A stretch of 34,845 nt of DNA from Candidatus Raymondbacteria bacterium RIFOXYA2_FULL_49_16 (GTDB taxonomy: Bacteria > Fibrobacterota > OXYB2-FULL-49-7 > XYB2-FULL-49-35), in the NCBI GenBank assembly GCA_001789205.1, contig MFYT01000009.1:1-34845 (forward strand), read 5' to 3'. Within the stretch, counting starts at the first letter, position 1. Every line of letters starts with the position of its first letter. The translations under genes and the position numbers were made by a program. This document shows, piece after piece, positions 33,482 to 34,845 of this stretch. Under the pieces are notes generated by a model. That model worked only from the letters and a program-made list of their open reading frames with translations, ran no database searches and was not told the origin of the DNA.

Positions 33482-33613
33482 CAGCAGAATTAAAATAATA
33501 AAGAAATCAAAGGGAGCAACACATAAAAATCGTTTTTTTGCCCTGCCGGGCCAGCCAGGGACGCTGATGGATGCAGGACAGGGTTTGCAGCCGTAGAAAC
33601 CTCTACAGCATGT

Positions 33614-33635
33614 CCGGCGGCGCGGAGGCCGCCGG
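33614..33635. repeat. Hairpin in copy 1 of the palindrome
   Basis: CCGGCGGC and GCCGCCGG form a perfect 8-bp stem with a 6-base loop (GCGGAG). The matching hairpin in copy 2 has A:T where this one has G:C at one stem position, so pairing is kept while sequence changes. T-rich sequence follows 14 bases after the stem on the plus strand. Confidence 0.6.
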
Positions 33636-33713
33636 TTAATCATACGCATGTTTTTTTCTTCTGATTATACGGCCGGAGGCCCAACTGGCCTCAACTGGGG
33701 AAAAACGGGCCTC

Positions 33714-33781
33714 CCCGCCCAAAGGGATGTCATTTCTAACATTCCAGACATGGTTGCATTAATGACATCCCTTTGAGCGGG
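33714..33781. repeat. Central stem of the palindrome (21-bp arms, 26-base loop)
   Basis: Arms at 33714-33734 and 33761-33781 match at 20 of 21 positions around CAAAGGGATGTCATT. The single mismatch becomes a G.U wobble in RNA read from the minus strand. A second smaller stem, CCCGCTT/AAGCGGG, lies directly beside it at 33782-33819. Confidence 0.65.
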
Positions 33782-33856
33782 CCCGCTTCATAAAGCTTCT
33801 AAAAAATTGCTAAAGCGGGCGGCCGTGTGCCATGAACACGAAAAGAAAACTGACTA

Positions 33857-33880
33857 ACCGGCAGCCTCTGCGCTGCCGGT
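33857..33880. repeat. Hairpin in copy 2 of the palindrome
   Basis: ACCGGCAGC and GCTGCCGGT form a perfect 9-bp stem with a 6-base loop (CTCTGC). On the minus strand it corresponds to the copy-1 hairpin, with 25 of 29 bases the same across stem, loop and GGTTARTCA tail. Two of the four differences compensate each other in the stem. Confidence 0.6.
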
Positions 33881-33973
33881 CCAACGGATTGAACATGCAA
33901 ACCCTGTCCGCCTGCACCCGAAACCGATGGAATTATAGTATTGGCAAGCCGCATTAATTTATTTTGAGAAACT

Positions 33974-34831: not shown

Positions 34832-34845
34832 CCCCCCCCCCCCCC
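34832..34845. other. Terminal run of 14 C
   Basis: The window ends in an uninterrupted run of C directly after TATTGTCTA. A homopolymer at the very end of a sequence often marks a sequencing or assembly artefact, though a real poly-C tract that broke the assembly is possible. Confidence 0.5.

Follow-up and report, generated by a model that had tools for sequence, protein, structure and literature searches.

Paired REP-type hairpins within the terminal inverted repeats of a probable miniature transposon in a Candidatus Raymondbacteria genome

The window analyzed here, that is, the whole 34,845-nucleotide stretch of contig MFYT01000009.1 from Candidatus Raymondbacteria bacterium RIFOXYA2_FULL_49_16, carries an inverted, structured block in the gap between two divergent genes (Table 1). 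The best delimitation of this block is 33569 to 33919, so that a response-regulator gene (PF00072) follows 55 bp downstream of it and the start of the divergent gene lies on its other side. Both neighbors had been named in the initial annotation; its response regulator was confirmed, whereas the FecR domain that it assigned to the left gene was not, as Pfam gave no FecR match there at E ≤ 0.001. Toward the end of the window, the poly-C run at 34832 to 34845 continues into N and more C on contig C9 and represents a scaffold gap, not a biological repeat.

All of the mirrored parts recorded in the initial annotation were present: the end blocks GGACAGGGTTTGCA (33576 to 33589, with the complement at 33896 to 33909; 100% identity), the two hairpins, the ACGGCCG and CGGCCGT boxes, and the 21-nt inner arms (95% identity). 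The outer repeats run slightly past the limits first noted, and their perfect portion measures 14 nt in the window and 21 nt in a copy on contig C100. Each hairpin has an 8-bp stem and a six-base loop and lies inside the outer inverted repeats; the spacer between the two, about 210 nt long, is itself structured, with further hairpins. Folded as a single strand, the block reached −177.7 kcal/mol, compared to −104 (SD, 5) for shuffled sequences (z = −14.7), and its two halves resembled each other in blocks only, not over their whole length.

Table 1. Parts of the element in the window (window coordinates)
Feature	Position	Strand	Sequence or remark
Left terminal inverted repeat	33569-33589	+	GGATGCAGGACAGGGTTTGCA; C100 copy has GGGTGCAGGACAGGGTTTGCA
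Left REP	33614-33642	+	8-bp hairpin, then tag TTAATCA (33636-33642)
Left REP hairpin	33614-33635	+	CCGGCGGC-GCGGAG-GCCGCCGG
Box ACGGCCG	33669-33675	+	Also in C26 (GCACGGCCG); altered to ACAGCCG in other copies
Left subterminal hairpin	33676-33713	+	GAGGCC...GGCCTC; homologous hairpins in C26 and C11 copies
Left central arm	33714-33734	+	CCCGCCCAAAGGGATGTCATT; homologous arm CCCGCCCATAAGAG(G/T)TGTCATT in C11:13.7k copy
Right central arm	33761-33781	-	Inverted, 95% to left arm, 21 nt
Right subterminal hairpin	33782-33819	+	CCCGCTT...AAGCGGG
Inverted box CGGCCGT	33820-33826	-	Counterpart of ACGGCCG
Right REP	33851-33879	-	Tag TGACTAA (33851-33857), then hairpin
Right REP hairpin	33858-33879	-	CCGGCAGC-CTCTGC-GCTGCCGG
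Right terminal inverted repeat	33896-33919	-	GGGTGCAGGCGGACAGGGTTTGCA (- strand); C100 counterpart 3 bases shorter

The initial annotation had proposed searching for a second copy and for dispersed copies with covarying stems, and both were found in the organism's own genome (5.43 Mb, 112 contigs). A second complete copy lies at C100:18097-18447, 98% identical and with unrelated flanks, and contig C59 carries a partial third copy; hairpin matches are scattered elsewhere. Such dispersal is in keeping with a palindromic mobile element, which was one of the options initially listed. The compensatory exchange between the two hairpins is real (GCGGC/GCCGC on the left, GCAGC/GCTGC on the right), and the C100 copy keeps the same G:C versus A:T difference between left and right; the exchange is therefore old, and the block is neither a fresh inverted duplication nor an artefactual fold-back. 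An open reading frame of 100 aa or more spanning the copy was absent in 16 of the 18 other copies or fragments checked. Beyond this genome, covariance model R1 of the hairpin (see below) had no match in 167 other genomes of the phylum, and the single 24-bp match to the block among 60 relatives was judged to be due to chance.

Thirteen hairpins from the same genome align almost without gaps, and covariation across them bears out the early suggestion that structure is under selection. Their stem cells are paired in 98.1% of cases (18 to 59% in slid registers), changes on both sides occur in five of the eight stem pairs, and 14 cells are doubly changed, compared to 3.3 in shuffles. The loop follows the consensus (G/A/T)C(A/G)GAG, and the seven bases 3' of the stem read TTAATCA or nearly so, which on the other strand places a tag, GATTAR, 5' of the palindrome. 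With a threshold of E < 0.02, model R1 recovered 30 matches in the genome; 12 inverted pairs account for 24 of these, and some 30 copies is a low number for a REP family. The left hairpin of the window scored 50.6 bits (E = 2.9e-9) and the right one 45.1 bits (E = 8.7e-8). Left and right units differ in five of the six pairs compared, and the local pairing is kept (15 to 16 of 16) while the left-with-right pairing falls (12 to 15 of 16), which suggests that the small local hairpin, rather than a long cruciform, is the maintained structure. Such a left/right "heterodimer" arrangement has already been described for REPs (PMC3733652).

These short, imperfect palindromes are multi-copy and extragenic and stand in inverted doublets able to form a hairpin. 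They are REPs, because the same hairpins bracket two of the genome's own RAYT genes and hairpins of this type form arrays around another RAYT in an unrelated bacterium; as a doublet they make up a REPIN-like heterodimer. The conserved tag GATTAR excludes them from the canonical GTAG super-family, with its 5' GT[AG]G guide tetranucleotide; published atypical subclasses likewise lack GTAG (PMC6006769).

Two Y1/HUH genes lie inside inverted REP pairs, both on the minus strand of contig C18 (29438 to 29896 and 57296 to 57709). Their products, 137 and 153 aa long and 51% identical to each other, score above the Pfam cut-off for Y1_Tnp (PF01797) and carry an HUH-type motif (NHLH/DHLH) together with one tyrosine at the catalytic position in YVL.N (YVLWNP/YVLFNS), the second form being without the usual NP. 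A profile of the two had a sole PDB match, the E. coli TnpA-REP (RAYT) 4er8, at an E value of 4.2e-6. No REP of the GATTAR family was found near the other Y1 genes of the genome, on contigs C31 and C107. A pattern scan located the same REP type in the MAG of an unrelated bacterium (contig L081), whose genome has five Y1 genes, one of which (L102) sits amid 11 model matches in alternating orientation with GATTAG/CTAATC tags. With RAYT genes flanked by the same REPs both on C18 and at L102, the link between this REP type and RAYTs has been seen twice independently. Other pattern matches in the contig collection, on Verrucomicrobiaceae and Ewingella contigs, were single and inside or near coding sequence, and a peptide-pattern scan for RAYT relatives across the genome contig collection confirmed none. 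As a separate observation, locus L025 (G000:C107:14797-17964) holds a second kind of Y1 gene, with a 250-aa frame surrounded by canonical double-foot GTAG REPs (GTAGGGGCGGGTTTnAAACCCGCCCCTAC); one of these apparently lies within the reading frame, resembling TnpA-Y1 subclass 2.4, and none occurs in the window.

The GATTAR REP pair occurs in four settings, three of which have outer ends of different types. REP-only elements (the two RAYT elements, C9:77.4k, C49, and C6) have neither inverted ends nor a target duplication. Type A (the window and C100) ends in GGGTGCAGGACAGGGTTTGCA, type B (C26, C48, and C11:13.7k, with truncated or minimal copies on C98, C101, and C97) in CAGTAGTGTCCGGTTAA, and type D (C11:2.2k, C78, and a partial copy on C71) in CTATCTATTACCCA. 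Target duplications of exactly 9 or 10 bp, directly abutting the ends, were found in five of the seven testable insertions: C100 (AACAACACA, 9/9), C26 (ATTCGTTTT, 9/9), C48 (AAAACTAAT, 9/9), C11:2.2k (CCCTCAGAAC, 10/10), and C78:15.5k (CATTGCCACC, 10/10). Wrongly paired flanks, used as a control, matched at 6 of the 9 or 10 positions at most. At C100, the duplicated bases themselves form part of a short tandem repeat. For the window copy, a candidate duplication (GACGCTGAT/GAAACCGAT) was rejected, as its agreement of 6/9 is equalled by mismatched flanks, and the C11:13.7k copy has no supported duplication. The window copy does possess terminal inverted repeats as in MITEs of the DDE type, and bodies of types A and B resemble one another in their central arms and hairpins (local alignments, 43 score units).

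An IS4-like transposon (DDE_Tnp_1, PF01609, plus DUF4372, PF14294) found in viral contigs L106/L107 has the same end as type B, and its L107 copy is bordered by a 9-bp duplication of its own (GTATGGGTT). The window's outer end was not found in the viral contigs, nor was an autonomous partner with window-type ends. Within the organism's own genome, a search of limited power detected no DUF4372-type transposase, and none of three PF01609 transposases has type B or window-type ends (GTGTCCGGTTAA or TGCAGGACAGGG). The trans-acting enzyme may be missing from the genome or lost, which may leave elements of types A and B immobile today.

Several further observations concern these elements. Frames reading ...LTGHY across the type B end at L071 1243 to 1632 (C39) and L070 1497 to 1574 (C27, at the contig end) are possibly transposase relics; the C39 frame matched no Pfam family. 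The type B element at L056 1461 to 1556 (C101) is minimal, with both ends around a single REP hairpin in about 95 bp. Short and long versions of one type B interior, apparently in opposite orientation (L051 1549 to 1597 on C98 and L057 1555 to 1642 on C48), suggest that the palindrome has undergone internal deletions. A second AACAACACA-GGGTGCACCC unit, immediately to the left of the C100 copy (L002, near 1475 to 1500), may be the footprint that a previous, almost complete excision of a type A element left behind. The idea that the core had flipped between the REPs with respect to the outer arms was dropped, as these arms are too short and symmetrical to decide it.

We consider the block most probably a non-autonomous, palindromic mobile element of the REP/REPIN type, enclosed on both sides by the terminal inverted repeats of a MITE (miniature transposon). 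It is best read as a single element bearing the marks of two unrelated transposition systems, one based on a single-strand-DNA transposase and the other on a DDE transposase. Now or formerly, a RAYT (Y1/HUH transposase) would nick and join the REP hairpins as single-stranded DNA. The outer unit would have been spread in trans by a DDE transposase, putatively IS4-like for the CAGTAGTGTCCGGTTAA-ended relatives, with the REP pair either as cargo of the DDE-moved unit or as an older core within it. What points to DDE transposition in trans is the presence of 9- to 10-bp duplications, given that IS200/IS605-type enzymes produce no larger target duplications and work without terminal inverted repeats (PMC2817692).

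It is unlikely that this is a plain REPIN, in which a RAYT alone moves the whole block and the outer repeats and duplications are incidental. REP pairs without outer repeats do exist (C9:77.4k, C49, and C6) and resemble the RAYT-bearing elements, but no REP-only element of this genome shows a duplication, whereas the exact duplications abut three different types of outer repeat and Y1 transposases of the IS200/IS605 group make none (PMC2817692). Less probable still is a miniature DDE transposon whose inner hairpins are REP-like by chance, for example as transcription terminators, with no RAYT involved. The relatives' outer inverted repeats and target duplications would suit it, as would a terminator-like match on the right REP (minus strand); yet terminator matches in the block are no commoner than in shuffles (2 versus 1.1; SD, 1.3), and this hairpin, together with its tag, is found on both sides of two RAYT genes in the present genome and of a third in an unrelated one. 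Also entertained in the initial annotation were two small RNAs, or else a large regulatory site acting on both sides. The position in a divergent gap, 55 bp before a response-regulator gene, and the strong folding speak for either, but both proposals failed and are now very improbable: a scan of the block against Rfam gave no covariance-model match at the gathering score, its one promoter-like site is as many as shuffles contain, the 98% copy, like many relatives, adjoins unrelated genes (seen for 18 other copies or fragments), and the block was found in just one genome of the phylum. Since those copies have such varied neighbors, a specific role at the window site is unlikely; the element inserted in a divergent gap, and any effects on the genes would be secondary. 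An assembly fold-back chimera, to which the inverted symmetry and the scaffold gap terminating the window might lend themselves, has a negligible probability, as left and right half disagree over most of their extent and the same asymmetry recurs in an independent copy located on a different contig.

Among known systems, REPs and REPINs with their RAYTs (groups GI to GIII of P. fluorescens, BIMEs of E. coli; PMC3116915, PMC2817692) share with our element the inverted, extragenic REP doublet, the covarying hairpins, and a Y1/HUH gene in the genome flanked by the same hairpin. They differ in having GTAG/GTGG in place of GATTAR, and our element differs from them in its low copy number, its long structured spacer, its outer inverted repeats, and the target duplications of several copies. 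REPtrons and TIRtrons (Di Nocera et al. 2013, PMC3733652), with a RAYT bracketed by REPs and REP heterodimers with spacer stem-loops, show that REP units can be combined with stem-loops and inverted repeats unrelated to them. There, however, the inverted repeats flank the tyrosine-transposase gene (PMC3733652), whereas here they enclose gene-less elements and come with DDE-type target duplications, and the RAYT elements are without inverted repeats. TnpA-Y1 subclasses 2.6 and class 3, with atypical secondary structures, likewise have Y1 genes flanked by GTAG-less hairpins (PMC6006769), but class 3 has a CnGA foot, and the proteins here carry YVLWNP/YVLFNS with N/DHLH. MITEs of the IS4 family (DUF4372 plus DDE_Tnp_1) resemble the type B relatives, which have the same end CAGTAGTGTCCGGTTAA as the L107 transposon and, like it, a 9-bp target duplication; the window end (GGGTGCAGGACAGGGTTTGCA) differs, and what lies between the ends is a REP pair, not a deleted transposase gene.

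The initial description of the block as an undescribed family thus stands in part: the sequence family is absent from Rfam and its tag GATTAR is not the published GTAG/CGTC, but a REP pair with a RAYT is already known. Earlier papers already describe REPs and RAYTs, heterodimeric REP pairs whose spacers are structured, and fusions of REPs with other inverted repeats (PMC3116915, PMC3733652, PMC6006769). In the open literature examined, no GATTAR-tagged REP class was found, and no REP pairs housed in several kinds of miniature transposon that duplicate their target.

Tentatively, the GATTAR REP module may have been taken up repeatedly by miniature transposons, with at least three end types, such that RAYT and DDE transposases act on one nested element and REPs hitch-hike in MITEs instead of spreading via RAYT alone. 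The way in which REPs spread is still a matter of debate, since RAYT genes are seldom seen to move anything. The copies with clean target duplications and transposon ends point to a second, testable route for REPs, via DDE miniature transposons. The findings also add a class of REPs in which the guide tag is another one, GATTAR; a RAYT accompanies this class in two unrelated bacteria, which would test the model of guide-sequence recognition by Y1 enzymes.
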